DNA of 64,000 nt from Martelella mediterranea (GTDB lineage Bacteria > Pseudomonadota > Alphaproteobacteria > Rhizobiales > Rhizobiaceae), in contig NZ_JAINWJ010000019.1 in the NCBI RefSeq assembly GCF_021021415.1, positions 1 to 64,000 of the forward strand. Direction: 5' to 3'. The position numbers and the translations under genes are program-made. The notes beneath the pieces were generated by a model. That model was given only the letters and a program-made list of their open reading frames with translations, searched no databases and was not told the origin of the DNA. Of the stretch, positions 31,418 to 49,939 are shown one piece after another. Every line of letters begins with the position of its first letter. Position 1 is the first letter of the stretch.

Positions 31418-31531
31418 GGCGTTGCGATCGGCTCTCTTCCTATCTGCCTTTTCAATGAGGACGGAAACAACAGGCCTCGTCCACGGGACTGTGGATCATG
31501 CCAGCAGAACAGAACGGGCATCCCATCATGA
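31418..31531. other. Spacer
   Basis: No gene or clear signal was seen between the GNAT fragment and the LysR stop codon. Confidence 0.4.
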
Positions 31532-32611: not shown

Positions 32612-33622
32612 ATGAGCAAGACGATACTGGTAACCGGTCCTGACCTGGCCGCCGAGGCAAAGGCGCTGGCGGAGAGCCACGGCTACGAGCTGGTGCATAT
32701 GCCGGCCTATTCCGATTCCACCGTGATTGCGGACTACATGGCGAAGACCGGAGCCGTCGGGATCGTGTCGCGCATGGGTCGTATCGATGCTTCCGTCATC
32801 GAGGCTGCCCCGCAGCTTCGGGTGATTTCCAAGCACGGCGTGGGCGTCGACAACATCGATATCGTCGCGGCTGCCAAGCGTGGAATTCCGGTTCTGGTTG
32901 CCACGGGCGCCAATGCGGTTTCGGTGGCCGAACATACCATCGCTCTTTTGCTGACCGTCTCAAAACGCATCCTGTCCTTGGACCGGAGCCTGCGCGAAGG
33001 CCGCTGGGAAAAGCCCGGCTTTCAGGGGCGGGAGCTCAACGGCGGCACGATGGGCCTGATGGGTATCGGCGCGATCGCCCGTGCGACCGGCGTCATGGCC
33101 AAGGGGCTGGGCATGACGCTGATCGCCTATGATCCCTATGCACCTGACAGTGCCTTCGAGGCTGTAGGCGCGCGCCGCTGCGCGACACCGCAGGAGCTGT
33201 TTTCCGGGTCGCAGGTGCTGTCGCTGCACAGCCCGTTGACCGAAGCGACGCGCAATATCGTCAATGCCGAGGCGCTGGCGCTGATGCCCAAAGGCTCATA
33301 CGTCATCAATACCGCGCGCGGGGGGCTGATCGACGAGCAGGCGCTGCTGGACGCCGTGGTCTCGGGTCACATCGCCGGCGCCGGCATCGATACCTTCGCA
33401 TCCGAGCCTCCGGGGCCGGATCATATCTTCTTCTCGCAGCCGAATATCGTCATGACTCCGCACATCGGCGGTGTCACCGCCGAAGCCAATGCGCGCGTCG
33501 GGACAGAAGCGCTGCGTGGAATCTTCCAGATTATCGACGGCCAGCCGGTCGCTCCCGAGCGGATCATCAATCGCGAATTTCTGGCCGCCGACGCGGCGCA
33601 CCTCACAAGCGTGGAGAAGTAA
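32612..33622 (+). CDS. D-2-hydroxyacid dehydrogenase
   Basis: This 336-residue NAD(P)-dependent dehydrogenase of the PGDH/D-isomer-specific family interconverts a 2-hydroxyacid and a 2-oxoacid. The substrate loop is KHGVGVDNID (residues 74-83). The catalytic residues are Arg236 (NTARGG), Glu265 (FASEPP) and His284 (TPHIGG). The Rossmann motif is GIGAIA (151-156), with Ala in place of the usual third Gly. ATG 32612 follows CTGGAGACG; a longer frame from 32525 covers the promoter. It is the first gene of an operon with an RraA-like aldolase and TctCBA, and divergent from LysR. It likely oxidises the imported hydroxyacid for aldol cleavage by the next gene product. Confidence 0.9.
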   Translation: MSKTILVTGPDLAAEAKALAESHGYELVHMPAYSDSTVIADYMAKTGAVGIVSRMGRIDASVIEAAPQLRVISKHGVGVDNIDIVAAAKRGIPVLVATGANAVSVAEHTIALLLTVSKRILSLDRSLREGRWEKPGFQGRELNGGTMGLMGIGAIARATGVMAKGLGMTLIAYDPYAPDSAFEAVGARRCATPQELFSGSQVLSLHSPLTEATRNIVNAEALALMPKGSYVINTARGGLIDEQALLDAVVSGHIAGAGIDTFASEPPGPDHIFFSQPNIVMTPHIGGVTAEANARVGTEALRGIFQIIDGQPVAPERIINREFLAADAAHLTSVEK

Positions 33623-33623
33623 T

Positions 33624-34304
33624 ATGCCTGCCGGCTTCCGAATCCTTAATCGTAATCAGGTTGCCTCGAAAGAGCTTGTCGATGCCTTTGCCAGGCTTCC
33701 CGTCGCCAATGTTTCCGACAGCATGTCACGGATGACCGCGGCCGGACCCACTCTGCGACCCATGCATGCGTCCGGGAACCTTGCCGGCGTTGCCCTGACC
33801 GTGAAGGCGCGGCCGGGCGATAATCTGATGCTGCACAAGGCAATTGATATGGCGGTCCCGGGCGACGTGATCGTCGTTGATGGCGGCGGTGACCTTTCGA
33901 ATGCGCTGATGGGCGAACTGATGCTCGCCTATGCAGTCCGCAAGGGCGTTGCCGGATTCGTGCTGAACGCGGCGATCCGCGACCTCGACGCTTTCGTCAA
34001 GACCAACCTGCCGACCTTCGCCGCCGGCGTCAGCCATCGCGGCCCATACAAGGATGGCCCCGGCGAGATCAACGTTCCGGTGAGCATCGGCGGCATGGTG
34101 ATCCACCCCGGCGACATCGTCATCGGCGATAGCGATGGTGTGCATTGCGTTCCGCTTGCCGATGCGGAGGAGGTCCTGAAGAAAACCCAGGCCAAGTCGG
34201 ATGCCGAGATCCACCAGATGAAGGCGATCGCCGAGGGCACCAATGACCGCGCCTGGGTCGATGCGGCCCTGAAGCGGCTCGGCTGTGAGTTCCCCGCGGA
34301 CTGA
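33624..34304 (+). CDS. RraA-like protein, HMG/CHA-type aldolase family
   Basis: This 226-residue member of the RraA/HMG-aldolase family has VVDGGGDLSNALMGELML (glycine-rich ligand loop) and LNAAIRD with Arg119-Asp120, the catalytic pair that binds pyruvate enolate and metal in HMG aldolases. A GVSHRGPYKDGPGEI segment (136-149) marks a branch shared with the protein at 43.6 kb. It starts one base after the dehydrogenase stop. The inferred role is retro-aldol cleavage or oxaloacetate-type decarboxylation of the 2-oxoacid from that dehydrogenase. RNase E inhibition, the original RraA role, is unlikely in this context. Confidence 0.85.
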   Translation: MPAGFRILNRNQVASKELVDAFARLPVANVSDSMSRMTAAGPTLRPMHASGNLAGVALTVKARPGDNLMLHKAIDMAVPGDVIVVDGGGDLSNALMGELMLAYAVRKGVAGFVLNAAIRDLDAFVKTNLPTFAAGVSHRGPYKDGPGEINVPVSIGGMVIHPGDIVIGDSDGVHCVPLADAEEVLKKTQAKSDAEIHQMKAIAEGTNDRAWVDAALKRLGCEFPAD

Positions 34305-34346
34305 TCCGCGACGAGACGACCAAAGCATGAAAAGGAGGAGAAAACC

Positions 34347-35300
34347 ATGCTGAAACTGATCCATACCACAGCGCTGACCGGCGCGATAATCCTGACTGCG
34401 GGCGCTGCGCTCGCCGAATATCCGGAAAAGCCGATCGAGGTCATCGTCGGCTTTTCCGCAGGAGGTGGCACGGACGTAATGGCGCGCACCGCGGCCCCCT
34501 TTATCGAGAAATATCTCGGTGACGGGGCAAGCCTGGTGGTGAAGAACGTGCCGGGCGCTTCCGGCCAGATCGGCGTCACCGAGGTCGCCGAGGCAGAGCC
34601 CGACGGTTACACCATCGGCACGTTCAACCTGCCCGGCATGATGGCGCGTACCATCGATCGTGAAGCCGGATATGACAGGGACAGCTTCACCTACCTGGCC
34701 AACGTCGTAAATGATCCCAATGTGATCGTCACCGCGAAAGGCAGCGGCTTCGACACGATCGACAAGCTGATCGCGGCGGCGAAGAAGGACCCCGGCGCCG
34801 TCACAGTCGGCATGTCCAGTCTGGGCGGCGACGATCACTTCGCGCTGATCAAGCTGGAGGGTTTGACGGATGCCGAGTTCACCATCGTTCCCTTCAAGGG
34901 GTCGGCGCCCGCGCGCACCGCGCTGATGGGCGGCCATGTCGCAATGGGGATCCTGAATATCTCCGAAGTGGCGAGCTTTCAGGATGAACTGAACGTGCTG
35001 GGCGTCGCGACCGAGGAGCGGTCCGACTTTGCTCCGGACATTCCGACGTTCAAGGAGCAGGGGATCGACCTCGTGAACGGCTCCATGCGCGGCTTCGTGG
35101 CGCCGGCCGGCTTGCCGGATGATGTTTCCGCCAAGCTGGATGATGCCTTCGAACAGATGGCTGGGGACCCCGAATTCCTTGCCGCCATGAAGGCCACAGC
35201 GAACCCGGTCGAGATCGTCACCGGCGATGAATTCAAGCAGCTGACGTCCGAGCTCTACGATCTGGCGAACGGCGTCTGGCAGGAAACGCCGTGGAACTGA
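34347..35300 (+). CDS. tctC: TTT transporter solute-binding protein (TctC), system 1
   Basis: This 317-residue periplasmic protein of the Bug/TctC family has a signal peptide (about 22 residues, ending AALA before EYPEKP). It carries the first ligand loop VGFSAGGGTDVMART and the EVAEAEPDGYTIGT element. Bug proteins usually bind carboxylates through bridging waters. It has a strong AAAGGAGGAG ribosome site, 42 bases after the aldolase gene. A long perfect hairpin follows it, likely setting a high binding-protein-to-permease ratio. Confidence 0.92.
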   Translation: MLKLIHTTALTGAIILTAGAALAEYPEKPIEVIVGFSAGGGTDVMARTAAPFIEKYLGDGASLVVKNVPGASGQIGVTEVAEAEPDGYTIGTFNLPGMMARTIDREAGYDRDSFTYLANVVNDPNVIVTAKGSGFDTIDKLIAAAKKDPGAVTVGMSSLGGDDHFALIKLEGLTDAEFTIVPFKGSAPARTALMGGHVAMGILNISEVASFQDELNVLGVATEERSDFAPDIPTFKEQGIDLVNGSMRGFVAPAGLPDDVSAKLDDAFEQMAGDPEFLAAMKATANPVEIVTGDEFKQLTSELYDLANGVWQETPWN

Positions 35301-35309
35301 TGTTCCATT

Positions 35310-35339
35310 CCGACGGCGCATCGACCCATGCGCCGTCGG
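35310..35339 (+). other. Perfect intercistronic hairpin, tctC-tctB system 1
   Basis: CCGACGGCGCAT and ATGCGCCGTCGG form a perfect 12-bp stem with a 6-base loop, nine bases after the tctC stop. There is no U-run, so it is more likely a 3' mRNA stabiliser or partial attenuator than a full terminator. Confidence 0.75.
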
Positions 35340-35383
35340 GCCTGCTACCCAAATTCGTCAAGCCTCTATGAGGGAGACTGTCC

Positions 35384-35845
35384 ATGCCAGACGACCGCAA
35401 GAGCCGCCTGCTCCGACCCGAGACGTTGACTGCCGTCGGCATCATCATCGCGGCTGCCGCTTTTCTCTTTCCCACGGCTGATCTGCGTCCGATCTCCGCC
35501 CTGCTGCCCGCCGCCATGCTGGTGGGCCTGATCGTATTGTCGGTCCTGCTCCTGATCGGCGATCAGCGTCATGCTGCGCAAGGAGAAGCCGCCCAAACCA
35601 TCGCCAAATCCTGGCGCCGCGTCATCGGGGCCTTCTGCCTGATCTTCGCCTATGCGCTCGGATGCGACTTTCTCGGCTTCTATCCGAGCACGATTGTCGT
35701 CATCCCGCTGGTCGCCTGGGTATTCGGGTTCAGGAACCCGCTCGGCCTGTTTGCCGCCACGGTCATTGTCGTCGGCGCAATCTGGCTGATCTTTGATTTC
35801 GGGATGTCCCAGGACTTCCCTGTCGGACGCCTCTGGCAGAACTGA
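35384..35845 (+). CDS. tctB: TTT transporter small membrane subunit (TctB), system 1
   Basis: This 153-residue protein has about four hydrophobic helices (residues 14-32, 40-62, 75-98 and 105-145) and the TctB-style GCDFLGFYPSTIVVIPLVAWVFGFRNP. It starts behind TGAGGGAGA. The TctB subunit is poorly conserved, and the assignment rests on hydrophobicity and its place between tctC and tctA. Confidence 0.85.
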   Translation: MPDDRKSRLLRPETLTAVGIIIAAAAFLFPTADLRPISALLPAAMLVGLIVLSVLLLIGDQRHAAQGEAAQTIAKSWRRVIGAFCLIFAYALGCDFLGFYPSTIVVIPLVAWVFGFRNPLGLFAATVIVVGAIWLIFDFGMSQDFPVGRLWQN

Positions 35846-35852
35846 GGTCACG

Positions 35853-37373
35853 ATGTATTCCGATCTTCTCAATGCGCTCCCCGAGGTTGTGGGATTTACG
35901 AATTTCGCCGCCGTCGTGATCGGCGTTCTGTCGGGCATCATCGTAGGCGCCATGCCGGGCCTGTCGGCAACGATGGCGATTTCGGTTCTGGTGCCCTTCA
36001 CCTTCGGGCTTGATCCGCTGGTGGCCCTCGGCCTGATGGCCGGCATCTACAACGGCGCGATGTATGGCGGCGCGATCCCGGCGGTGCTGCTGCGCATTCC
36101 CGGCACGCCGGCCGCCGTCGCCACCACCTTTGACGGCTATCCCATGGCCCAGAAGGGCGAGGGGGGCTTTGCGCTGCAGGTGGCGGTCGTGTCCTCATCC
36201 ATCGGCGGCATCGCGTCCGCCTTCGCGCTGATGCTGCTGGCGCCGCCGCTTTCCAAGGTGACGCTGCTATTCGGTCCGGCTGAGGTGTTCTGGGTCGCGA
36301 TCTTCGGTCTCGCCTCGATCATCTTTCTGCTGGGCGGCAATCCGGTAAAGGGGTTGATCAGCGCCTGCTTCGGGGTGTTCATCTCGGTGGTGGGTTCCGA
36401 TCCGATCTATGGCAATGACCGTTTCACCTTCGGCCAGCTCGAGCTTCTCGACGGGATCAGCATCGTGATCCTGCTTGTCGGTCTCTACGCGCTGCCGCCG
36501 GTGATCGATCTTCTGGAATCGCCGCTGAAGACGGAAGGCGTGGAAGGCAGCAAGCTGGGTACGCAACCGATCTGGAAAGCGCTTCCTCGGATGAAGCATT
36601 TCTGGAAGACCTGGCTGCGTGGATCACTGATCGGTATCTGGATCGGGATTCTGCCCGGCGCGGGCGGGTCGATGGCGGCCTTCATGTCCTATAACGAGGC
36701 GCGGCGAGCCTCGAAGCACCCCGAACGCTGGGGTGAGGGCGAGCCCGAGGGCGTTGCTGCCGCGGAGACCGCCAACAATGCCGACACCGCCTCGGCGCTG
36801 ATCCCGGCCCTGACGCTTGGCATTCCGGGAACCGCCGTTGCCGCGGTGATGCTGGGCGGCCTGCTGGTCCATGGCCTGCAGCCTGGGCCGATGCTGTTCC
36901 GGGACAATCCGGATGTCGTTTTTGGCTTCATGTGGCAGTTCCTGTTCGGCGCCATCCTTCTGGTTCTTCTGGGCGGTTCGCTGGCGACCAACAGTTTCGC
37001 AAGGCTTCTGAACCTGCCGCGTCCGCTGCTCGGCTCGATCATCATCGTGCTGATGCTGATCGGTGTCTATTCGATCAATGGCCGCATGTTCGACGTCTAT
37101 CTGATGCTCGGCTTCGGCGTGATCGGATGGCTGATGGACAAGATGAAGTTCCCGCTGCCGCCAATGGTGCTGGGCCTGATCCTGGGCGCCTTCGCGGAAG
37201 AGAACCTGCGCCTTGCCCTGCGGATCGGGCGTGGCGACTGGTTGGTCCTGTTCCAGAACACCACCAGCCTCGTGATCGTCGCGCTGACGGTCGCCGTGGT
37301 CGTCGGGCCAATCATCAAACGTCGGATCGTGGCCCGCCGCGCGGCGGATGGTGACGCTGGGACGGAAGGCTAA
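35853..37373 (+). CDS. tctA: TTT transporter large permease (TctA), system 1
   Basis: This 506-residue permease has about 12 membrane segments. Family elements are VGAMPGLSATMAISVLVPFTF, RIPGTPAAVATTFDGYPMA and, in the second half, GIWIGILPGAGGSMAAFMSY and ETANNADTASALIPALTLGIPG. ATG 35853 fits the family start, seven bases after tctB. It ends the first module operon. About 280 bases separate it from the next tctC, which appears to have its own promoter. Confidence 0.93.
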   Translation: MYSDLLNALPEVVGFTNFAAVVIGVLSGIIVGAMPGLSATMAISVLVPFTFGLDPLVALGLMAGIYNGAMYGGAIPAVLLRIPGTPAAVATTFDGYPMAQKGEGGFALQVAVVSSSIGGIASAFALMLLAPPLSKVTLLFGPAEVFWVAIFGLASIIFLLGGNPVKGLISACFGVFISVVGSDPIYGNDRFTFGQLELLDGISIVILLVGLYALPPVIDLLESPLKTEGVEGSKLGTQPIWKALPRMKHFWKTWLRGSLIGIWIGILPGAGGSMAAFMSYNEARRASKHPERWGEGEPEGVAAAETANNADTASALIPALTLGIPGTAVAAVMLGGLLVHGLQPGPMLFRDNPDVVFGFMWQFLFGAILLVLLGGSLATNSFARLLNLPRPLLGSIIIVLMLIGVYSINGRMFDVYLMLGFGVIGWLMDKMKFPLPPMVLGLILGAFAEENLRLALRIGRGDWLVLFQNTTSLVIVALTVAVVVGPIIKRRIVARRAADGDAGTEG

Positions 37374-37656
37374 TGTATGGCCGCTGCATCTGGATATCTC
37401 GGGCGTGCCGATGTTCGCCCGCGCCGACTGAGCATGCCGGAGGGCGGCGAGAGCCTCAGTGAATATGTCGAAGAACTTCATTTGTCGTTAGCATGGAGAC
37501 CGGACGGGGATAGATGCAGTAATTCTGGATAAAACCTTAAATTTAATTCTCTTTTATTAAGGAAAACAAATGTTACATAAGGTGCTCTGGGAGGAGCGGT
37601 CTGGCAAAAGTTTATGGCAGATGGTTTCCGCTGACTGAAAATCTGAGGAGGAGAAC
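37374..37656. promoter_or_regulatory. Promoter region of TTT system 2
   Basis: The stretch at 37520-37600 is strikingly A/T-rich and carries CCTTAA-16-TTAAGG (37535-37562), a loose dyad. GGAGGAG precedes the tctC start. The first 100 bases may be the worn end of an older gene, but I could not identify it. No regulator gene lies beside this system. Confidence 0.5.
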
Positions 37657-38622
37657 ATGAAATTTTTCCGTAGTATTACCGCCGCCGCACTGGTCAGCAC
37701 ACTCGGGCTGGCCGCCGGCATAGGCTTCGCTCAGGCCGCCGAATGGCCCGAGCGCAGCATCACGCTCGTCGTGCCTTATGGCGCAGGCGGCACCACCGAT
37801 GTCTCCGCCCGGCAGCTTGCTACCATGGCCGAGAAGACGCTGGGCCAGCCGATCGTGGTTGAAAACCGCCCGGGCGGCAGCGGCGCCAACGCCATGCGCT
37901 TCGTGGCGAGCGCCAAGCCGGATGGCTATACGCTGATCGCGACGACCTCCTCGCCGAGCTTCGTGACGCCTGCGCTGCGCCCGACCGGCTATGATCCACT
38001 CAAGGATTTCGTGCCGATCATGAACTATTCGGGGCCCTATCACGGCGTTCTCGTCAAAGGAGATTCCGAATACACTTCCCTGAACGATCTGGTTGAGGCC
38101 GCCAACACGGGCAAGACCCTCACTTATGGCACGGCCGGTGCCATGGGCGGCGCGCATCTCGCCTTCACCAAGCTTGCCGGCGAAACCGGCGCTCGCCTGC
38201 AGCACGTGCCCTTCGACGGCGCGGCTTCGGCCACGGCGGCGGTTCTCGGCGGTCATGTCGATATCGCTCTGGTGCCAGCCTATCGCGATCTGGTCGAGGA
38301 TGGCCAACTGAAGCTGCTCGGCGTGCTTGATGGTGACAACGATCCGGATTTCCCTGACGCGCCGACCCTGGAAGAGGCCGGCTATGACGTCGAATTCCCC
38401 TCGATCGTCGGCGTGCTTGCGCCCGCAGGCACCGATCCCGCAATCGTGGAGCAGCTTGAGACGGTGTTCACCGAGGTGGCGTCGTCCGACGAGTTCAAGG
38501 ACTTCATGACCCGTCTGAACCAGCCCGTCCGCATCATGAGCGGCGAGGAACTGGGTGAAACGATCGCCACCAATCTTGAAGCTTACAAGGCCGTGGCAAA
38601 AGAAATGAGCATGTCTCAGTGA
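37657..38622 (+). CDS. tctC: TTT transporter solute-binding protein (TctC), system 2
   Basis: This 321-residue Bug/TctC-type periplasmic protein has a signal peptide ending FAQAA before EWPERS at about residue 28. It has the ligand loop VPYGAGGTTDVSARQLA, the ENRPGGSGANAMRFVASAKPDGYT element and the second-domain GTAGAMGGAHLAFTKLAGETGARLQHVPFDG, all typical of the family. Its last codons overlap the tctB start. It is the sole binding protein of the second system, whose operon ends with an amidohydrolase. Confidence 0.92.
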   Translation: MKFFRSITAAALVSTLGLAAGIGFAQAAEWPERSITLVVPYGAGGTTDVSARQLATMAEKTLGQPIVVENRPGGSGANAMRFVASAKPDGYTLIATTSSPSFVTPALRPTGYDPLKDFVPIMNYSGPYHGVLVKGDSEYTSLNDLVEAANTGKTLTYGTAGAMGGAHLAFTKLAGETGARLQHVPFDGAASATAAVLGGHVDIALVPAYRDLVEDGQLKLLGVLDGDNDPDFPDAPTLEEAGYDVEFPSIVGVLAPAGTDPAIVEQLETVFTEVASSDEFKDFMTRLNQPVRIMSGEELGETIATNLEAYKAVAKEMSMSQ

Positions 38623-39086
38623 GCCCCGACGGGAACAAACGCTGGATGCCGGTCTTCGGCATCCGCACCCTGACCTGCGCGCTACTGCTGGCGGGCGCGG
38701 CTGCAGGGCTCGTGCTACTTGAAGCACAGGTCCCGGTCTGGAATCTCGGCGGTGCGGGGCCGACGGCGCGGACCCTGCCGCGCGTGGCGCTGGCGCTGCT
38801 GGTCGCAGCGCTTCTGCTGCGCCTTGTCGTCGGGCTTTTCGGAACGGACAGGCCTGTCGGATCGATTCGTGACTGGAGTCCGGTTTTCCTGGTGGTCGTT
38901 GCGACGGTGGCCGCGCTGGCATTGATGCCCCTTGCCGGTTTCATTCCCTGTGCAGCCGGTCTTGGCATCATCATTGCGCTCGCCTATGGGGAACGCAAGC
39001 CGGTCTTCAGCATTGGCCTGCCGGTTCTGGCGGCGCTTGCGATCGGCCTTGGCGCCGAGCATGTGCTGAACATTCCCTTGCCCTGA
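38619..39086 (+). CDS. tctB: TTT transporter small membrane subunit (TctB), system 2
   Basis: This 155-residue protein starts at a GTG that overlaps the tctC stop (GTGA). About four hydrophobic segments are visible (residues 12-32, 45-68, 85-112 and 116-145), with the TctB-like LAGFIPCAAGLGIIIALAYGERKP. Position and membrane profile support the call. Confidence 0.83.
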   Translation: MSPDGNKRWMPVFGIRTLTCALLLAGAAAGLVLLEAQVPVWNLGGAGPTARTLPRVALALLVAALLLRLVVGLFGTDRPVGSIRDWSPVFLVVVATVAALALMPLAGFIPCAAGLGIIIALAYGERKPVFSIGLPVLAALAIGLGAEHVLNIPLP

Positions 39087-39148
39087 CGCCGTCGTTGCAC
39101 GACGGGTTGGGCCCCCCATTCACGGCCGACCCAACGGAGATCCCCGGC

Positions 39149-40636
39149 ATGATCACGGAAGCCTTCTACATGCTTTTCGACATCTGGATCCTGCTTGCCA
39201 TGCTGGCCGGGATCGCGGTGGGGATCATCATCGGCGCCATTCCCGGTCTGGGGCCGAGCATGGCCATTGCCCTGCTGATCCCGATCACATTCTCGATGCA
39301 ACCGATACCGGCGCTGCTTCTGCTTCTGGGCGTCTATCAGGGCGCGATCTTCGGCGGTTCCATCTCCGCCATCCTCCTGAATGTGCCCGGCACGCCGTCC
39401 GCTGCCGCGACAGCGCTGGACGGCTACCCGATGGCGCGCCAGGGGAAGGCCGGAAGGGCGCTTCGGATCGCGCTCTACGCCAGTGTCGTCGGCAACTTCT
39501 TCAGCTGTCTCGTGCTGATGGCGCTGGCCCAGCCGCTGGCCTCGGTGGCGCTCGATTTCGGCCCGGCGGAGATGGCAGTGCTGATCTTCTTTGCCTTGCT
39601 TGTCATCGTCCTTCTGGGCGGAGGATCAAAACTCGACGCGCTGATCATGGTGATGGTCGGCGTCTGTGCCGGGGTTGTCGGGCTTGACCCGATCAGCGGT
39701 TCGCCCCGGTTCACGTTCAACTCCTTCTCGCTTGAAAACGGGTTCGCACTGATCCCCGTTCTGATCGGCCTGTTCGCCATGTCGGAGGTGCTGGTCCAGC
39801 TTTTCGACCGACCCAAGTCCGATGTGGACGAGGTTCCGATTCCTCCAGTGCCAAGTTCGCATGTCGGTTGGCTCGATATGTGGCGTATGCGCTCCACGCT
39901 GGTGCTGTCCTCGGCCATTGGAACCTTCATCGGCATTCTGCCGGGGATCGGCTCCACCATTCCAGCCTTCATGAGCTACGGCCTGGCGCGATCGCGCGCG
40001 AAAGACCCGGAGCGGTTCGGCAAAGGCGAGGATGCCGGCGTTGCGGCACCCGAGGCTGCCAATAACGCGGTGACCGGTGGCGCTCTTGTCCCGATGCTGG
40101 CACTGGGCATTCCCGGCGATGCGGTGACGGCTGTCATTCTTGGCGCCTTCATGCTGCAAGGGCTGGCACCCGGTCCGTTTCTGTTCCGCGATCACGGCGT
40201 CGAGGTTTATGCGATCATCGAAGCGCTGCTGATCGCTTCGCTGCCGACGATCCTGATCGGTCTTGCGCTGTTCCGCGTCGCGATCCACGTCATCCGGGTC
40301 CGGCCCCGGCATCTTTTCCCGGTCATCGCGCTGCTCTCCGTTTTCGGGGCCTACTCGGTCAACAACATGCTCTTCGACGTATGGGTCATGCTCGGCGCAG
40401 GCGTGCTGGGCTTCCTGTTCCGCCGCTCCGGCCTGCCCGTGCCGCCGCTTCTGATCGGGCTGATCCTCGGCAAGCCGCTGGAGCAGGCGGCGCGGCAGGC
40501 GCTGCTGACGAGCGGCGGCAGTCCCGCTATTTTCGTCAGTTCGCCGATTTCAATCGGCTTTGTGGCCCTGATCGTCGTCTTTGTTGCCGGGACGCTGGTC
40601 CTGCCGCATCTGCGCAAGAGGCAAAAGCCGCTATGA
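39149..40636 (+). CDS. tctA: TTT transporter large permease (TctA), system 2
   Basis: This 495-residue permease has the elements IGAIPGLGPSMAIALLIPITF, NVPGTPSAAATALDGYPMARQG, GILPGIGSTIPAFMSYG and EAANNAVTGGALVPMLALGIPGD. ATG 39149 is preceded by CGGAGA; a longer frame from 39095 begins with a poorly placed TTG. Its stop overlaps the amidohydrolase start (ATGA), so the hydrolase is made with the transporter and probably acts on the imported compound. Confidence 0.92.
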   Translation: MITEAFYMLFDIWILLAMLAGIAVGIIIGAIPGLGPSMAIALLIPITFSMQPIPALLLLLGVYQGAIFGGSISAILLNVPGTPSAAATALDGYPMARQGKAGRALRIALYASVVGNFFSCLVLMALAQPLASVALDFGPAEMAVLIFFALLVIVLLGGGSKLDALIMVMVGVCAGVVGLDPISGSPRFTFNSFSLENGFALIPVLIGLFAMSEVLVQLFDRPKSDVDEVPIPPVPSSHVGWLDMWRMRSTLVLSSAIGTFIGILPGIGSTIPAFMSYGLARSRAKDPERFGKGEDAGVAAPEAANNAVTGGALVPMLALGIPGDAVTAVILGAFMLQGLAPGPFLFRDHGVEVYAIIEALLIASLPTILIGLALFRVAIHVIRVRPRHLFPVIALLSVFGAYSVNNMLFDVWVMLGAGVLGFLFRRSGLPVPPLLIGLILGKPLEQAARQALLTSGGSPAIFVSSPISIGFVALIVVFVAGTLVLPHLRKRQKPL

Positions 40637-41421
40637 TCATCTGCGATTGCCACATCCACGCCTTCGCCAAGGGTGTCGAACGGGCAGTGGGCGCCTATGT
40701 CCCGCCCGAGAAGGATATCGGGGACTTTATCGCCGAGGAGGCGCAGACCAACGGCATCGGTCGGGCGGTAGTCATTCAGGCCTCGGTCGACGGGACCGAC
40801 AATACCGCTCTCGCCCGGATGGTGGCGTCTCCACCCGAGGCGATCGCGCTGCGCGGCGTGGCGATGATCTCGCCCGCCTCGACGGGCCTTGAGGCGCTTG
40901 CCGCAAGCGGCATCAGGGCGGCGCGGCTGCAGGACCGGCGCCGTGTGGGGATCAACCAACTCGACCTCTTGCCGCAGGTGGCGGCGCTGGCGGCAGAGGT
41001 GGACTGGCATGTCGAACTCAACACCGAGCCGGAGCGCTTCGACCGCGTGGCGGCGGCGCTCGAAGCCATGCCCGCGGGACAGCCGCTCGTTCTTGATCAT
41101 TTCGGCCATGTCAACCCGACCTCCGAGGCCCAAGTGACAAGCCTCTGTCGTCTTCTGGACAGCGGGCGCATCTGGGTGAAACTCTCGCCCACCCGGGTCA
41201 GCACAAGGCCGGACAACTATGATGACCTCGCCGCCCTCGTTTCACGCCTTGTGCAGGGCTGGCCCGATCGCTGCCTCTGGGGCAGTGACTGGCCTCACGT
41301 GATGACGCCGCCGCCCGTGCCCCGTTTGGCGCCGATGCTCGATTTGCTGAAACAGGTTCTGCCGGATGAAGGTCTCAGGGCTGTGCTGCAGGACAATCCC
41401 GCAGCGCTCTATCGGTTCTAG
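40633..41421 (+). CDS. Amidohydrolase-2 family hydrolase (PDC lactonase / LigI-like)
   Basis: This 262-residue TIM-barrel hydrolase of the amidohydrolase-2 family has the N-terminal metal motif CDCHIHAF (residues 4-11), the strand-end LVLDHFGHVN and the C-terminal WGSDWPHVMTP with the catalytic Asp. Family members include 2-pyrone-4,6-dicarboxylate lactonase and 4-sulfomuconolactone hydrolase. Translational overlap with tctA implies that the substrate is what system 2 imports, plausibly a lactone of a di- or tricarboxylate. It is the last gene of its operon. Confidence 0.87.
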   Translation: MIICDCHIHAFAKGVERAVGAYVPPEKDIGDFIAEEAQTNGIGRAVVIQASVDGTDNTALARMVASPPEAIALRGVAMISPASTGLEALAASGIRAARLQDRRRVGINQLDLLPQVAALAAEVDWHVELNTEPERFDRVAAALEAMPAGQPLVLDHFGHVNPTSEAQVTSLCRLLDSGRIWVKLSPTRVSTRPDNYDDLAALVSRLVQGWPDRCLWGSDWPHVMTPPPVPRLAPMLDLLKQVLPDEGLRAVLQDNPAALYRF

Positions 41422-41774
41422 AGCATTCTCCGCGAAAACCGGTATCCACTTGTCCTGGGCACCCTCAAGTGGCTTTGTCCCGACATTTCCCGGGTAATAG
41501 GCGGAAAGGCGCTGGGCTCTGCGGTCCACGCCTTACAAAACCCGCGTTGGTTGGGGTCGTTGATAGTCTTGAGCTTGCAGTCGAAGCTCGATGCTGCGCT
41601 GAATCAGCGCGGCATCGTCGGAACTGAAGTTGGCTCTCATAGGGGTAGCGCTTGGCGGCCGCGTCCTCGATCGATCGTTTCGTCCTCTCTGTGAGCGCAT
41701 GAAAGCTGCCGTTGAATCGCAGACTTTGAGGCGGGAACGCTTCAAGCACCGCTCGTTGCCGTCATTAAATGGCG
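41422..41774. other. Spacer with a rhizobial-type repeat half
   Basis: The 353 bases between convergent amidohydrolase and GntR genes hold no supported gene. AGAGCATTCTCCGCGAAAACCGGTATCCACTT at about 41421-41452 resembles half of a palindromic spacer motif common in rhizobia. The remainder shows nothing recognisable. Confidence 0.45.
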
Positions 41775-42461
41775 TCAATCGTCCGACTTTTCGGACCCTG
41801 CTTTGTCAGATCCTTCAAGCAGCAATGCGAGGCGCTGGAACCGTCCGCGGCGAATATGCTGCCGGGCGGCCTCTTCCGCCGCAGCGACATCGCCGTTTTC
41901 GATAGCGGCATATATGGCGAGGTGATCCTTGAGCGACCAGGCTTCATAATCATAGCGTCCTTCTGTCTGTCCCCGTATCATTTCGGCGGAGGCCAGCAGA
42001 ATCTCGGCGGTGTGCTGGACATATCGATTGTTCGAGATTCGGTAGATACATCTGTGAAAGCGATCATTGACTCCGAGAAACTCAGTCTCGTTACTTTGCC
42101 CCTTCTCCTGATCGGCGAGGATGGACCGCAGCTCTATCAGATTCGACGTGTTCGCCCGCTTGGCGGCAAGGCGCGCAGCCAGACACTCCACCGCTTCGCG
42201 CATGTCATAGATTTCTTCGGCGCGCGCGATATCGATGGTGGCGACAATCATTCGCCCACCACTGGTATGCGCTAGAAAACCTTCGCTGAGCAGACGCTGC
42301 AGGGCTTCGCGCGCCGGCGTCCGGCTGACATTGAATAGCTTGCAAAGGCTCTGCTCACTGACCCGGTCGGCCGGAGCAAGAGTCCCATTGCGCAGCAACT
42401 CGCGCACTTTACCGTATACAGCCTCTCCCAGAGAGTCATCTGTCTTGCTGTTGGCGCTCAA
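41775..42461 (-). CDS. GntR-family regulator (FCD type)
   Basis: This 228-residue regulator has a winged helix (residues about 10-75; LCKLFNVSRTPAREALQRLLSEGFL) and an FCD domain with GVNDRFHRCIYRISNNRY and a downstream His pair. The start is TTG 42461 with GAGG eight bases upstream. It is divergent from the dehydrogenase of the second 2-hydroxyacid module, 148 bases away. A TTGTGT-5-ACACAA dyad in that gap is its likely operator. It replaces the LysR protein that sits in the same place in the first module. Confidence 0.88.
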   Translation of the reverse strand: MSANSKTDDSLGEAVYGKVRELLRNGTLAPADRVSEQSLCKLFNVSRTPAREALQRLLSEGFLAHTSGGRMIVATIDIARAEEIYDMREAVECLAARLAAKRANTSNLIELRSILADQEKGQSNETEFLGVNDRFHRCIYRISNNRYVQHTAEILLASAEMIRGQTEGRYDYEAWSLKDHLAIYAAIENGDVAAAEEAARQHIRRGRFQRLALLLEGSDKAGSEKSDD

Positions 42462-42498
42462 GATAAAACCTCAAAAAAACAATGTGAAAACCGGTAAC

Positions 42499-42515
42499 TT
42501 GTGTCTAGCACACAA
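42499..42515. promoter_or_regulatory. Dyad TTGTGT-5-ACACAA upstream of module 2
   Basis: Perfect 6-base arms flank CTAGC, in the divergent GntR/dehydrogenase region. Two further TGNATACAG-type half sites (around 42550 and 42588) lie closer to the dehydrogenase start. One or more of these are probably bound by the GntR protein. Confidence 0.55.
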
Positions 42516-42609
42516 TTTGCCGCAGCATCAAGGTTGACGAATTTTCGACCAATGGTATACAGAATTAGCAATTAAATCGAATTGTGCATACAGTTGAAAG
42601 CCTGCATTC

Positions 42610-43608
42610 ATGCCCCGAACAGTTCTCGTAACCCGCGACCGAATTCACCCGGATGCCGTCGCAATGCTGGGCGAAGCCGGCTTCGAATGTCTGTTTTCGC
42701 CTCCGTATGCGACTGGCGAGGAGGTTGTCCGCGCCGCCTCGGAAGCCCGGGTCGACGCGATCATGGTCTCTCAGGGGCGAATTACGCGTGAGGTCATCGC
42801 CGCGTCGAGCGCGTTGAAGGTGATCGTCAAGCACGGCAGCGGGGTCAACAACATCAATCTGACAGCCGCCGAGGATTTGGGCATACCGGTCTACCGCGCC
42901 GTCGGTGCGAATGCGCGTTCCGTAGCCGAGCATACAATCGCGCTGATCCTGTCATTGCTCAAGTCGTTGCCGCAGCTCGACAAGGCGACGAAGAGCGGGG
43001 AGTGGATGAAATCCTCGTTTATCGGACGGGATATCAAGGGTGCCCGGCTGGCACTGGTGGGATTGGGCGTGATCGGGCGTGAGGTCGCCACGCTCGCCAA
43101 GGGGCTGGGGATGGAGGTCAGCGCCTTTGACCCCGGCTGCGATGCCGAAGCCCGCGAGGCGCTGGGCCGTGACAACATCACGCTGGTGAGCGCAATCGAG
43201 GACATGCTTGGCGAGGCCGATATCGTTTCCCTGCACTGCCCGCTCACGAGCAAGACTCGTCATCTGGTCGACAGGCGTTTTCTGGCGGCGCTGAAGCCCG
43301 AGGCTGTCTTGATCAACACCGCGCGCGGCGGGATCGTCGACGAAGAGGCGCTGGCCGAGGCGCTGATAGCCGGAGAGATCGCCGGAGCGGGGATCGACAG
43401 TTTCGAGCAGGAGCCACCTCCGGCAAGTTTGTCTTTGTGGGGCGCGCCGAACCTGATCGTCTCCCCGCATGCCGCAGGTCTGACGCCGGGAGCGGAGCGC
43501 GCCATGGCGACGACAGCGGCTCAGCTCATTATCGATCATCTGGCGGGCAAAACCATCCCCGCCGTGTTTCATGCCAAGGCCGCCGTTCTCGGCGGGCTTC
43601 AGGAATAG
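42610..43608 (+). CDS. D-2-hydroxyacid dehydrogenase
   Basis: This 332-residue paralogue of the dehydrogenase at 32.6 kb has the loop KHGSGVNNIN (74-83), a normal Rossmann motif GLGVIG (151-156), Arg239 (NTARGG), Glu268 (FEQEPP) and His287 (SPHAAG). Its 2-oxoacid product is presumably handed to the RraA-like protein next door. It is the first gene of the second module and divergent from a GntR gene. Similarity to the first copy is clear but moderate by eye, so it may serve a related but different acid. Confidence 0.9.
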   Translation: MPRTVLVTRDRIHPDAVAMLGEAGFECLFSPPYATGEEVVRAASEARVDAIMVSQGRITREVIAASSALKVIVKHGSGVNNINLTAAEDLGIPVYRAVGANARSVAEHTIALILSLLKSLPQLDKATKSGEWMKSSFIGRDIKGARLALVGLGVIGREVATLAKGLGMEVSAFDPGCDAEAREALGRDNITLVSAIEDMLGEADIVSLHCPLTSKTRHLVDRRFLAALKPEAVLINTARGGIVDEEALAEALIAGEIAGAGIDSFEQEPPPASLSLWGAPNLIVSPHAAGLTPGAERAMATTAAQLIIDHLAGKTIPAVFHAKAAVLGGLQE

Positions 43609-43616
43609 GAAATGAC

Positions 43617-44294
43617 ATGACCGAAGGTTTCCGCGTCAAGACAAATTGGGACAGGGTGAGCGAGACCGAGGTGCAGCGCGCGAAGAGCCTGCCGGTCTCC
43701 AACATAAGTGACGTTATGTCACGCCGTTTCGCGGCCCCGGCCAGCCTGCGTCCGATGCACCGCGCAGGTGCGATGGCCGGGCCCGCCCTGACCGTCAGCG
43801 TACGCCCCGGCGACAACCTGATGCTGCACAAGGCACTGCAGATGGTCCGGCCGGGCGAGGTAATTGTGGTCGATGCAGGCGGTGCACTCGACAATGCGAT
43901 CATGGGTGAACTGATGCTGGCGCGGGGCGCATGCTCCGGCGTAGCGGGGATCGTGATTTACGGCGCCATCCGCGACGTGGAGGCAATCAGCCAGCAGGAC
44001 ATACCGGTTTTTGCCAGCGGCGTTTGCCATCGTGGCCCCTACAAGGACGGCCCCGGCGAGATCGGTCTGCCGATTGCTCTGGGTACGATGATCGTTCACC
44101 CCGGAGATCTGATCGTTGGCGATCGGGATGGCGTTCTGGCGGTGCCTCGCTCCTCTGTGGGCGCGGTTCTGACTCGAGCCGAGACGAAGCACGCCTCCGA
44201 GGAGGCGCAGCTTCAAGATACGCTTCAGGGTGCATACAAAGGCGACTGGATCGACCAGACGCTGCATCAACTGGGATGTGAATTCATGGATTGA
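43617..44294 (+). CDS. RraA-like protein, HMG/CHA-type aldolase family
   Basis: This 225-residue close relative of the protein at 33.6 kb has VVDAGGALDNAIMGELML and YGAIRD with Arg119-Asp120 at the same positions. The branch-marking segment GVCHRGPYKDGPGEI is also present. The start is ATG 43617; an ATG at 43612 gives a two-codon frame. It follows the dehydrogenase by eight bases and precedes TctC. Same inferred role: cleavage of the 2-oxoacid to pyruvate plus a second product. Confidence 0.85.
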   Translation: MTEGFRVKTNWDRVSETEVQRAKSLPVSNISDVMSRRFAAPASLRPMHRAGAMAGPALTVSVRPGDNLMLHKALQMVRPGEVIVVDAGGALDNAIMGELMLARGACSGVAGIVIYGAIRDVEAISQQDIPVFASGVCHRGPYKDGPGEIGLPIALGTMIVHPGDLIVGDRDGVLAVPRSSVGAVLTRAETKHASEEAQLQDTLQGAYKGDWIDQTLHQLGCEFMD

Positions 44295-44347
44295 GGCCGG
44301 CATCGATGTGATTGCCGAAGCCTGATTTTTCAAAACGGGAGGAAGAT

Positions 44348-45319
44348 ATGACAGTGTTCAGAAACAGTTTCAAAGCCGTGATGACGGCAGTTGCGCTGAC
44401 GGCGGCAACCATCATGCCTGCGGCGGCACAGGAGTTTCCGGGCTCGCGGGGCCTCGAATTCGTAGCTGGCTACGGCCCGGGCGGCGGGCACGATACGATG
44501 CTGCGCATGATGGCCAAAATCATCCAGTCCGAGAAGATTGTCGACGCCAGCATCAATGTGGTGAATAAACCCGGCGGCGCCGGCGCCACCTCGCTGGGCT
44601 ACCTGAACTCTCATAAGGGGGATGGACATTATCTCATGTCTGCAACCTCCTCATTCATCACCACTCCGTTGACCACGGATGTCGGCCTCAACTACACGGA
44701 TTTTACCCCGATTGCCCGGCTGGGCATCGACCCGGTCATCATGGTCGTGCCAGCCAAATCCCCGATCAAGTCGCTCGATGATGTCAAGAACGCCGAACGC
44801 GTTCTCAACATCGCCGGCGGCGGGCGCGGACAGATCGAGAATATCGTGACGCTTCTGCTCGGCGACAGAATGGACAAGACCTTCAACTTCATCCCTTTCC
44901 AGGGAGATGGAGAGGTCTCCACGGCGGTCCTCAGTGGCCAGGTCGATGCAGCGATGATCAACCCCGGTGCGATCAAGGAATTCATCGAAGCCGGACGGGT
45001 GCGGGCAATCGCTATCTCCACCGATGAGCGGGCGGCAATGTTCCCTGATCTGCCCACCTTCAAGGAAAGTGGCTTCGATGTCGTCGCTTCGGTTTTCCGA
45101 GGCGTGGTGGCTGCCAAGGACATTCCCGAAGATGAAAAGAACTACCTGTCGAGCATGGTCGAGAAGCTTCAGGTCACCGATGCTTGGAAAACGCAGTATC
45201 TCGAGCCCAACGGGATCATCCCGGGTTACCTCGGGCCCGATGCTTTCGGGGCCTATCTGGAGCAGACCAACGAACTGTATCGTTCGACCCTGGAACGACT
45301 CGACCTTCTGAAGGGGTGA
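44348..45319 (+). CDS. tctC: TTT transporter solute-binding protein (TctC), system 3
   Basis: This 323-residue periplasmic protein has a signal peptide ending MPAAAQ before EFPGSR (about residue 27). Its ligand loop GYGPGGGHDTMLRMMA differs from the usual GGxxDxxAR form. GGGAGGAAGAT gives the start at 44348; the longer frame adds a polar leader. Its stop overlaps the tctB GTG. It looks more divergent than systems 1 and 2, suggesting a different ligand shape. Confidence 0.9.
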   Translation: MTVFRNSFKAVMTAVALTAATIMPAAAQEFPGSRGLEFVAGYGPGGGHDTMLRMMAKIIQSEKIVDASINVVNKPGGAGATSLGYLNSHKGDGHYLMSATSSFITTPLTTDVGLNYTDFTPIARLGIDPVIMVVPAKSPIKSLDDVKNAERVLNIAGGGRGQIENIVTLLLGDRMDKTFNFIPFQGDGEVSTAVLSGQVDAAMINPGAIKEFIEAGRVRAIAISTDERAAMFPDLPTFKESGFDVVASVFRGVVAAKDIPEDEKNYLSSMVEKLQVTDAWKTQYLEPNGIIPGYLGPDAFGAYLEQTNELYRSTLERLDLLKG

Positions 45320-45768
45320 CTGAGTTGGAAAAAGGGATCCATTTGATCTTCTTGGGTTTGCTGACGGCTTTCGCCGTCGGCATCCTAGGCGGTTCGGCCC
45401 ATCTGAAATTTGCGGACGAATATTCTTTCGGGCCGGGTTTCGTGCCTGTGGTCATCGCATCACTGATGCTGTTCTGCTGTGCTGTTCAGGCGGTCAAGCT
45501 TCTGCGTGCCCGGCCGGCTGTGGTGACGCAAGCAACCGATAGGCAGCCACCTAACCTGGTTGGGCTCGGGCTTGCAATTGCGATTATCGGTTTCGGCGTT
45601 GCCGCCATGTCGTTCGGTTCGGTCTTTGGTCCGGTCGCGGCGATCGTGTTTCTGGTTTCCTGGGGGGTGATACGACACCCGTTGCCAATCTCGCTGTTCG
45701 TCAGCGCCTCAACGACCGCTGTCCTGTACCTGATCTTCGCTGTCTGGCTCGGCCTACCCATCACTTGA
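45316..45768 (+). CDS. tctB: TTT transporter small membrane subunit (TctB), system 3
   Basis: This 150-residue protein starts at GTG 45316 in a GTGA overlap with tctC. The N-terminal YSFGPGFVPVVIASLMLFCCAVQAVKLLRAR is typical of TctB, and four hydrophobic segments are visible. It sits between tctC and tctA in the second module. Confidence 0.83.
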   Translation: MTELEKGIHLIFLGLLTAFAVGILGGSAHLKFADEYSFGPGFVPVVIASLMLFCCAVQAVKLLRARPAVVTQATDRQPPNLVGLGLAIAIIGFGVAAMSFGSVFGPVAAIVFLVSWGVIRHPLPISLFVSASTTAVLYLIFAVWLGLPIT

Positions 45769-45786
45769 GCTTTTATAGGTTTGCAA

Positions 45787-47292
45787 ATGCTACATTCGCT
45801 GTCCGAACTCTTTTCGGCGATGGCTCAGTTTGCTTCGCCGGGCAACTTGGTACTGATTTTTGCGGCCGGAATGATTGGCACCGTCGTCGGCGCCTTGCCG
45901 GGGCTTGGTCCGTCGGCAGGGATCGCGCTGATGATGCCGCTTACCTTCGGGATGAACCCTATCTCCGGATTGAGCCTGTTGACCGGCGTCTATATGGGCA
46001 CGATGTATGGCGGACGCCTGACTTCGATCCTGATCAATACGCCGGGCGACGCACCAGCTATCGTGACGGCGATAGAGGGTTACCCGATGATGCAGAAGGG
46101 CAAGGGGGGGCTGGCGCTCGGAATCTCGGCGATAGCCTCTTTCATCGGCGGCTTGTTCGGTCTTGCGGTGCTGGTGCTTTTCGCGCCGGTTATCGCCGAA
46201 TATGCGATCTTCCTCGGGCCGCCGGAATATTTCATGCTGATGTTGCTTGGTCTCAGTATGATTGTCGTCCTCGCGGGCGCAGATCCGATCAAGGCCTTGA
46301 TCGCGACATTTTTCGGCGTCCTGATTAGCACCATCGGCAGCGACTACGTATCAGGCAATGCCCGCTTCGTGATCATGCCCGAACTGATCGACGGCGTTGA
46401 TTTTGTCGCTGTCATTATTGGCCTATATGGTATTGGGGAAGTCCTGGTGGGCATCGAGGAACGGGTTCGCCTTGAGATGGGCAAACCGCGCTTTCGCTTC
46501 GGAGAGTTTGTGCCAAACCGGAGCGAGCTGCGCCAAACGGCGCTGCCGATCCTGCGCGGCTCAACGCTGGGCACGCTGATCGGCGTTCTGCCCGGAGCCG
46601 GCGCAACGATCGCCACCTTCGTATCCTATACGACCGAAAGGAAACTGACGAAGACGCCCGAGCGGTTTGGCAAGGGGGCTATCGAGGGTCTGGCTTCGCC
46701 CGAAGCAGCGAACAATGCAGCCGTGCCCGGCTCGCTGATCCCGCTCCTGGCGCTGGGCATTCCAGGCTCAGGCGGCACGGCAATCATGCTAGGCGCGCTG
46801 GTCATGTTCGGGCTCAATCCCGGACCGATGCTCATGGTGCAATCCGCCGATATCGTCTGGGGGACCATCGCCGGGCTCATCATCGCGAATTTCTTCCTGC
46901 TACTGTCCAACATTATGTTGATCCCGGTTTTCGTCAACGCATTGCGGATCATCCAGAAGCACCTCAGCGCCATCGTCCTGGCCTTCTGCCTGGTCGGCGC
47001 CTTTGCGATCAATTACGGGCTTTTCGATATCTGGGTCACCGCGATTTTTGGACTCATTGGCTACATGATGAAACGCGCAGACTACCCGACGGGCCCGTTC
47101 ATCCTGGCGCTCGTCCTGTCGCCGCTCGCCGAGAACTACCTGCGACAGTCCATTATGCTGGGGCAGGGGGAGTGGAGCATTTTCTTTGCCAAGCCGCTGA
47201 CCGCAATTTTCAGCACACTGGTGCTGCTGGTGATGGCATTCGGCCTGCTCAAGGCCCCACTTAGGGCGATCTGGAGCCGCCGCGAATTGTAA
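45787..47292 (+). CDS. tctA: TTT transporter large permease (TctA), system 3
   Basis: This 501-residue permease has VGALPGLGPSAGIALMMPLTF, NTPGDAPAIVTAIEGYPMMQKG, GTLIGVLPGAGATIATFVSY and EAANNAAVPGSLIPLLALGIPG. Its PGDAPA loop differs from the PGTPxA of the other three permeases. ATG 45787 was chosen; a TTG two codons earlier is also possible. It is the last gene of the second module. Confidence 0.92.
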   Translation: MLHSLSELFSAMAQFASPGNLVLIFAAGMIGTVVGALPGLGPSAGIALMMPLTFGMNPISGLSLLTGVYMGTMYGGRLTSILINTPGDAPAIVTAIEGYPMMQKGKGGLALGISAIASFIGGLFGLAVLVLFAPVIAEYAIFLGPPEYFMLMLLGLSMIVVLAGADPIKALIATFFGVLISTIGSDYVSGNARFVIMPELIDGVDFVAVIIGLYGIGEVLVGIEERVRLEMGKPRFRFGEFVPNRSELRQTALPILRGSTLGTLIGVLPGAGATIATFVSYTTERKLTKTPERFGKGAIEGLASPEAANNAAVPGSLIPLLALGIPGSGGTAIMLGALVMFGLNPGPMLMVQSADIVWGTIAGLIIANFFLLLSNIMLIPVFVNALRIIQKHLSAIVLAFCLVGAFAINYGLFDIWVTAIFGLIGYMMKRADYPTGPFILALVLSPLAENYLRQSIMLGQGEWSIFFAKPLTAIFSTLVLLVMAFGLLKAPLRAIWSRREL

Positions 47293-49934: not shown

Positions 49935-49939
49935 GCGTT

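Follow-up and report, generated by a model that had tools for sequence, protein, structure and literature searches.

A mobile island in Martelella mediterranea pairs D-2-hydroxyacid dehydrogenases with predicted RraA-type pyruvate aldolases and Tct importers

A 64,000-nucleotide stretch of Martelella mediterranea DNA (contig NZ_JAINWJ010000019.1, positions 1 to 64,000 of the forward strand; hereafter the window) carries two modules in which a D-2-hydroxyacid dehydrogenase gene (DH) is followed by an RraA-type gene and by the tctC, tctB and tctA genes of a Tct importer. Both modules belong to one larger, mobile island, which we read as a set of catabolic cassettes for import, lactone opening, oxidation with nicotinamide adenine dinucleotide (NAD) and aldol cleavage to pyruvate, with a probability of roughly 58%. 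In the proposed pathway, the TctCBA system of each module would import a small carboxylate, and lactonase-type enzymes, a LigI-like amidohydrolase (AmdH) in the window and SMP-30 proteins or other amidohydrolases in relatives, would open a substrate often met as a lactone. The dehydrogenase would use NAD to turn the C2 hydroxyl into the oxo group of a 2-oxoacid; RraA, acting as metal-dependent pyruvate aldolase of the PRK06201 subfamily, would then cleave the 4-hydroxy-2-oxoacid into pyruvate and a second carbonyl compound. The two modules, each under its own regulator, would serve related but different substrates. A preliminary description of this DNA had already proposed import, oxidation and cleavage, which is still the best reading in view of the RraA active site, the intact dehydrogenases and the conserved DH-RraA order; its further claim of a complete pathway in each module overlooked the linked lactonase-type hydrolases and goes too far.

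RraA1 (33624 to 34304, + strand) and RraA2 (43617 to 44294, +) scored 320.7 and 292.7 bits, respectively, against NF004850 (PRK06201, cut-off 231), a subfamily that still bears the NCBI model name 'hypothetical protein'; C22, C26a and C26b, three further RraA proteins of the source genome, exceeded the cut-off as well. Among 125 aligned rows, the equivalents of R40, N71, G101, R123, D124, G144 and E199 of 4-hydroxy-4-methyl-2-oxoglutarate/4-carboxy-4-hydroxy-2-oxoadipate (HMG/CHA) aldolase were invariant, and nearly fixed were those of H75 (121/125), K147 (120/125) and D102, where 120 rows have Glu and five Asp. The catalytic and metal-binding equivalents in RraA, namely R119, D120, N67 and E195, were found in all 125 rows, the equivalence of E199 and E195 being read by eye from the shaky end of the alignment. 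Arg123 of HMG/CHA aldolase stabilises the enolate of pyruvate, the metal being bound by Asp124 and Glu199 (PMC5065237). The model of RraA1 (predicted local distance difference test score, pLDDT, 91.9) superposed on the HMG/CHA aldolase 3NOJ with a Z score of 28.8 over 223 of 226 residues (29% identical), farther than on E. coli RraA (157 residues). Judged from sequence and model, the RraA active site is of the class II pyruvate aldolase type, and both proteins are predicted aldolases. The segment HRGPYKDGPGEI and Arg119-Asp120 occur in both proteins as described previously; the segment, however, is not distinctive of these two but a PRK06201 hallmark, with R139, G140, P141, G145, P146 and G147 in 125/125 rows, Y142 in 123, K143 in 120 and D144 in 106. 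A role of RraA1 and RraA2 in RNase E regulation was rejected, as their scores against NF006875 (79.9 and 81.1 bits) lie below the cut-off of 136 and the aldolase active site is complete.

DH1 (32612 to 33622, +; PF02826 with 188 bits, PF00389) and DH2 (42610 to 43608, +; PF02826 with 189 bits) are members of the D-2-hydroxyacid dehydrogenase superfamily by their Pfam domains and their Arg-Glu-His set. Their catalytic residues are complete, as had been stated: Arg and His were present in 76 of 76 aligned rows and Glu in 75, both window proteins included (R236, E265 and H284 in DH1). An Asp at the end of strand beta2 is typical of NAD rather than NADPH enzymes, and 71 of the 76 rows carry Asp174 at this position. 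Both proteins are predicted to be intact NAD-type D-2-hydroxyacid dehydrogenases. Neither reached the cut-off of the phosphoglycerate dehydrogenase model TIGR01327 (454), with 276.3 bits for DH1 and 259.4 bits for DH2. The best Protein Data Bank match of DH1 was 9whb (1.1e-69), deposited as 3-phosphoglycerate dehydrogenase. By eye, the N-terminus of 9whb is nearly identical to that of the DH of an Acinetobacter DH-RraA pair (locus L128, 8812 to 10678), and 9whb appears to be this very DH. The partner RraA, the divergent gene layout and the major facilitator superfamily (MFS) importer at L128 fit the deposited name poorly, so that name and physiological role would differ; if the proposed chemistry is right, 9whb and related proteins would be wrongly named.

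Conservation of the modules centres on the DH-RraA pair. We compared 120 PRK06201 loci, namely the best 80 of at least 588 relatives on genome contigs and 40 loci drawn from the 45 matches that the order and class samples gave outside the source genome, in which genes were identified by crude open reading frame calling and BLAST against references from the window, its own genome and the first 80 loci, a procedure that misses distant partners. A DH lay within 3 kb of the PRK06201 RraA in 74 loci (60/80 from genome contigs, 14/40 from the order and class samples), sharing the strand of RraA in 59 of these and separated from it by no more than 300 bp in 70, whereas we estimate chance proximity at ~2-3% from the 18 dehydrogenases above 120 bits in the 5.4-Mb genome. 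Trees were quick ones with Shimodaira-Hasegawa-like approximate likelihood ratio test (SH-aLRT) support only, those of DH and TctA having long branches. Pairwise distances in the DH and RraA trees correlated with r = 0.53 (77 pairs), a value reached by none of 2000 shuffles (maximum 0.34), and 41 of the 77 pairs had the same nearest neighbour in both trees. The betaproteobacterial pair of Azoarcus (L085) sits within the Paracoccus group in both trees, and DH-RraA co-inheritance is thus seen even where the genes have moved. With this linkage and a tree agreement beyond shuffling, gene order in related genomes is clearly not random; the random order that the preliminary description had named as speaking against its reading was thus not found.

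Between the two modules lies a third TctCBA set with an amidohydrolase (37657 to 41421), which had been overlooked. The amidohydrolase AmdH (40633 to 41421, +; PF04909 with 99 bits), a predicted lactonase, found its best sequence match in LigI, the lactonase of 2-pyrone-4,6-dicarboxylate (PDC) (5.9e-24), and its model gave a Z score of 29.9 to the PDC hydrolase 4di9 (2.2 A, 256 residues), tied with 29.0 to the Agrobacterium protein 4mup. R98, R104 and R188 of AmdH align with R124, R130 and R217 of the LigI chain, which we take to hold the two carboxylates of PDC. All three are kept in AmdH and five orthologues, whereas no other amidohydrolase row of these loci has the second or the third; a dicarboxylate lactone is a reasonable guess for the substrate of this middle cassette. 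Against the 4-sulfomuconolactone hydrolase model NF042924 (cut-off 500), AmdH scored only 89 bits. A study of IclR regulons places COG3618, the family of the LigI-type amidohydrolases, with the metabolism of sugar acids or aromatic compounds (PMC8222616). By eye, the amidohydrolases of a Paracoccus-type locus (L078, 13721 to 14671) and a Pseudomonas-type locus (L108, 6394 to 7377) seem to start with an export signal, in which case lactone opening may take place in the periplasm and precede uptake.

Lactonase-type genes are also common beside the pair elsewhere, being found within 9 kb in 35 of the 74 DH-paired loci compared to 6 of the 46 unpaired ones. Among 22 genomes picked for having a module-1-type RraA (21 of a 28-genome set plus G000), SMP-30 lay within 10 kb of this RraA in 16 genomes (16/66 copies versus 0.3 expected), Amidohydro_2 in 13 (18/97 versus 0.43) and flavin mononucleotide (FMN) oxidase in four (4/47 versus 0.21), and the count of amidohydrolases within 12.5 kb was 19; as these genomes are related, the Poisson values overstate significance. 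Typing covered all 66 SMP-30 rows and, for amidohydrolases (21/97) and FMN oxidases (5/47), the rows near a module on its contig. These neighbours bear on an alternative in which DH would oxidise a malate-type (3-carboxy-2-hydroxy) acid to an oxaloacetate-type product and RraA would decarboxylate it to a 2-oxoacid and CO2. Such a route would suit di- and tricarboxylates, presumably common Tct cargo, as well as the rarity of aldehyde-dehydrogenase-like genes beside the pair (two clusters, named by eye, of three loci each among the clustered loci). Nevertheless, lactonase-type genes suit a 4-hydroxyacid better than malate, and a DH-decarboxylase pair would be less economical than one decarboxylating dehydrogenase; we consider this alternative unlikely.

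FMN 2-hydroxyacid oxidase genes were present within 9 kb in 19 of the 74 paired loci compared to one of the 46 unpaired loci, an enrichment that favours oxidation of 2-hydroxyacids. The presence of both a D-2-hydroxyacid dehydrogenase and an FMN oxidase by one aldolase suggests that both C2 configurations are oxidised to the same oxoacid. Since these oxidases presumably only oxidise, their enrichment argues against a reversed order, in which RraA would first cleave an imported 4-hydroxy-2-oxoacid and DH would then reduce a product such as glyoxylate or hydroxypyruvate, and the preference for NAD over NADPH suggested by Asp174 points the same way. Glyoxylate and hydroxypyruvate reductases do occur in the DH family, and DH1 scored 190 bits against NF009714, below its cut-off of 455; we give the reversed order little chance.

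Several observations weigh against oxidation followed by aldol cleavage. Pro occupies the position of aldolase Thr145 in 125/125 rows, the position of Arg195 mostly holds Lys (107/125) or Gln (17), and the cut-offs of the LigK models TIGR02798 (304.5) and PRK09262 NF006731 (179) were not reached by RraA1 (144.2 and 155.2 bits) or RraA2 (130.2 and 142.1 bits). No DH was found within 3 kb in 46 of the 120 loci, including 26 of the 40 from the order and class samples, so RraA does not need a DH partner everywhere. Moreover, the 80 genome-contig loci are best matches to an RraA1-headed alignment and over-represent module-1 kin, and the shuffles leave shared organism ancestry in place. In 39 of the 74 paired loci, the flank examined lacked a lactonase-type gene up to 9 kb away, SMP-30 has been lost from the window itself, and the aldehyde-dehydrogenase-like genes that would fit an aldehyde as possible second product are confined to the two clusters mentioned above. 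FlDet, an RraA-like protein described as a dehydratase/decarboxylase acting on 2-keto-3-deoxy-glucarate (PMC8563752), is a reminder that RraA chemistry is not fixed by the fold; a comparable activity of the island proteins, with which the change of Thr145 to Pro would agree, is nevertheless highly improbable, as FlDet is reported to be only 20% identical to HMG/CHA aldolase, compared to 29% over 223 residues for RraA1, which keeps the pyruvate-enolate set. Our substrate candidates are guesses: 3-deoxyaldonates (metasaccharinates), pantoate, 2,4-dihydroxyglutarate, and 4-methyl- or 4-carboxy-branched analogues.

The order DH-RraA-tctC-tctB-tctA is indeed present twice, at 32612 to 37373 and 42610 to 47292, with intact reading frames. 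Gene coordinates derive from open reading frame lists and Pfam scans, the start codons being partly our choice. Module 1 continues behind RraA1 with the solute-binding protein TctC1 (34347 to 35300, +; PF03401, 125 bits), TctB1 (35384 to 35845, +) and the permease TctA1 (35853 to 37373, +), module 2 with TctC2 (44348 to 45319, +; PF03401, 92.6 bits), TctB2 (45316 to 45768, +) and the permease TctA2 (45787 to 47292, +), and the middle importer consists of TctC_m (37657 to 38622, +; PF03401, 181 bits), TctB_m (38619 to 39086, +) and TctA_m (39149 to 40636, +). All three TctC proteins and the three island TctAs (PF01970) exceed the Pfam cut-offs and are members of the Tct transporters; the TctB proteins were named by position and by orthologues annotated as TctB at L189, a locus of Martelella sp. 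NC18 (94.8% identical for TctB1, 98.4% for TctB2).

In spite of the shared order, the view of a duplicated module was not borne out, since the parts are distant paralogues, the TctAs fall into different clades and the relatives are separate for each module. Identity between modules 1 and 2 amounts to 52% for RraA, 39% for DH, 37% for TctA and 27% for TctC, and TctB1 and TctB2 gave no significant match. In a tree including the 21 TctAs of the genome, TctA1 (in a clade of 30 rows), TctA_m and TctA2 formed three clades with other paralogues of the same genome between them. A recent tandem duplication was rejected because the transporters are too unlike, TctA1 groups with the C22 TctA and TctA2 elsewhere, and RraA1 shares more identity with C26b (61%) than with RraA2 (52%). 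RraA and DH trees alike place module 2, represented by the window and five Cohaesibacter-type loci, as sister to an Ensifer-type group and module 1 in another clade; RraA2 and the five Cohaesibacter-type rows form a clade of their own (SH-aLRT 100). The Ensifer-type loci (L099, L109, L144 and L145) have no Tct in the slot and instead carry a CitE-like gene (HpcH_HpaI), a CoA-transferase-like gene (CaiB, by eye) and genes for ATP-binding cassette (ABC) ATPases, the CoA-transferase-like and CitE-like genes hinting at a C4-C5 dicarboxylate context. In the module-2-type DH, Ser replaces Arg54 of module 1 in 6/6 rows, and the two rows inspected have Gly-Ser-Gly instead of Gly-Val-Gly. Arg54 is, we assume, substrate-binding in human PHGDH. 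Because of these residue changes, the substrates of the two modules probably differ, though they would be related.

RraA2-type proteins (68-69% identical) were found in five of 248 other genomes of the order sample, all of one genus, taken as Cohaesibacter since the coordinates of one of them coincide with those of the named locus L082, and their distance to a module-1-type RraA was 11.4 kb, 41 kb and ~1 Mb in three of these, with the genes on different contigs in a fourth and no module-1-type RraA in the fifth at E 1e-55. A constant linkage of modules 1 and 2 was therefore rejected as not general among RraA2-type genomes. Within the 28-genome set, the RraA2 type is present in G012 (the same Cohaesibacter), and two contigs of G006 gave two partial matches (65% and 60%). 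Of the 385 genomes in the class sample, 11 had a match at 1e-55; among them was G000, the only one above 55% identity. As at most seven candidates per genome were scored in the class sample and at most 11 in the order sample, misses are possible.

The importers behind the pair vary. In 43 of the 74 paired loci, RraA had a TctA behind it, in the same orientation and no more than 3.5 kb away, and these TctAs belong to at least five lineages of the TctA tree: the TctA1 clade, that of L078, L088, L089, L110, L113, L121, L132 and L137, that of L085, L090 and L093, TctA_m in L096, L102 and L106, and TctA2. One DH-RraA group (L078, L085, L088, L089 and L090) contains two of them, and an MFS permease gene was present within 9 kb in 13 of the 74 loci, Pseudomonas and Acinetobacter loci among them. 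The DH-RraA-tctCBA order thus arose with different importers, either through replacement or through separate assembly.

As noted earlier, the regulators differ by module. A LysR-type regulator (31532 to 32425, - strand; Pfam HTH_1 and LysR_substrate) is divergent from DH1, and in 39 of the 74 loci the paired DH likewise has a LysR1-like gene (>45% identity) in divergent orientation; across 41 LysR-DH1 regions, conservation is confined to the half next to LysR. A GntR/FCD regulator (41775 to 42461, -; PF00392 and PF07729) is divergent from DH2, and all five Cohaesibacter-type loci have a GntR 64-65% identical in the same place. Alignment of seven GntR-DH2 intergenic regions revealed a common palindrome, TNGTATACNA, over a promoter-like TTGACG-16 bp-TATACA (42534 to 42562, +), probably the module-2 promoter; its position over the -10 element would fit a GntR/FCD repressor.

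The whole island (~31347 to 47744) is shared with the 259-kb plasmid (unnamed2) of Martelella sp. NC18 (L189), which shows the order LysR-DH-RraA-TctCBA-DctPQM-SMP30-TctCBA-amidohydrolase-GntR-DH-(RraA)-TctCBA. By blastn, the window matched L189 in three blocks, 31347 to 37388 (91.2% identity), 37381 to 45388 (93.8%) and 45385 to 47744 (96.5%). The first two overlap by ~8 bp at 37381 to 37388, where ~4.0 kb of the plasmid, comprising tripartite ATP-independent periplasmic (TRAP) transporter genes and nearly all of SMP30, are missing from the window. A scar at 37381 to 37430 (+) retains the last codons and stop of SMP30, the residual frame reading PLHLDISGVPMFARAD in the window and PHLDISGAPMFAHAE on the plasmid. 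Because the window keeps these last residues, the TRAP-SMP30 cassette was lost here and not gained in the plasmid. The window TRAP genes (27.2 to 30.3 kb) are not supported as the lost TRAP, their DctM sharing only 37-39% identity with the one conserved at L103 and L106. On the plasmid (L189, 34122 to 37043), the best match to RraA2 is in frame for residues 1-153 only, and TctC2 is separated from TctB2 by an IS630 transposase; module 2 of the plasmid is thus decaying, whereas the window copy is intact. Parts of the island also occur in Halomonadaceae-type loci (L096, L102 and L106), Pseudooceanicola (L081) and others, and RraA1-like PRK06201 genes were detected on 70 of 72,556 plasmid records (tblastn, E 1e-60).

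The source genome (5.41 Mb, 106 contigs) has nine RraA-family matches, 21 TctAs and 18 2-hydroxyacid dehydrogenases above 120 bits among 31 rows. Five RraAs belong to PRK06201 (RraA1, RraA2, C22, C26a and C26b; a second RraA on C40 lies outside the scan), and a DH adjoins three of them. A third DH-RraA-Tct module is located on contig C22 (L060, 134 to 7914), with a GntR, TctABC divergent from a DUF1932 dehydrogenase, a DH, a PRK06201 RraA and an FMN 2-hydroxyacid oxidase; similar sets were seen at L160-L162 and L165. Contig C26 (L061, 6780 to 15823) carries two PRK06201 RraAs without DH, one behind an aminotransferase (by eye) and the other with a DUF1932 dehydrogenase, a TRAP importer and an amidohydrolase. 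To the right of the island, a fourth Tct set (47959 to 53484) comprises a LysR (-), TctC (48945 to 49934), TctB (50001 to 50534) and TctA (to 52057), directly followed by a sulfatase (PF00884, 166 bits) in which a CxPSR-type motif can be seen by eye; the set seems suited to taking up a sulfate ester and desulfating it. A short RraA at 21819 to 22406 scored 157 bits against NF006875, above the RNase E-regulator cut-off, and has ring-cleavage-type glyoxalase-fold dioxygenases, an FAH hydrolase and FAD hydroxylases as neighbours; it may be an aromatic-pathway aldolase misnamed as regulator. Two transposase-like reading frames (by eye) lie at the left end of the window (206 to 1509).

The RraA superfamily is rich in proteins of unknown role, and a conserved, co-evolving partner in alpha-, beta- and gammaproteobacteria turns PRK06201 into a testable two-step reaction. 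We tentatively suggest that DH and PRK06201 RraA may form a portable core that oxidises and cleaves lactone-forming 2,4-dihydroxy (poly)carboxylates. This would be an undescribed route widespread in Proteobacteria, linked to different importers on at least five occasions and stacked here with a LigI-like lactonase for the conversion of several related, possibly PDC-like, compounds to pyruvate. If the chemistry is right, hydroxyacids or lactones of a new class would be expected as growth substrates, many of the organisms with the pair being marine by name, and the pair would help to find what the three Tct receptors of this single locus bind. No description of a DH-RraA-Tct cluster was found in the open-access literature, as judged by titles and the starts of abstracts.

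Among known systems, HMG/CHA aldolase (GalC/LigK/ProA, 3NOJ) resembles RraA1 in its full-length fold and its metal and pyruvate-enolate residues. The island RraAs differ from it by scores below the LigK and PRK09262 cut-offs, by Pro for Thr145 and Glu for Asp102, by their pairing with DH and by modules without aromatic ring-cleavage genes. The LigI-LigJ-LigK route of protocatechuate 4,5-cleavage, as we understand it, likewise brings together a LigI-type lactonase, with the three Arg seen in AmdH, and an RraA-type aldolase; in contrast, no LigJ-type hydratase is among the island genes identified, a 2-hydroxyacid dehydrogenase is added, and AmdH is only 29-30% identical to LigI. In riboflavin (lumichrome) catabolism by LumW-LumY-LumX, pyrone opening is likewise followed by retro-aldol cleavage to pyruvate, whereas a hydratase is used and the accessible part of the source mentions no 2-hydroxyacid dehydrogenase (PMC12746152). 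The combined logic of a lactonase and a 2-oxo-3-deoxy-acid aldolase is also that of the non-phosphorylative sugar-acid pathways, as we know them, except that oxidation of the 2-hydroxyl would replace dehydration, no dehydratase being among the island genes identified. Taken together, the island is a new combination of known enzyme kinds.

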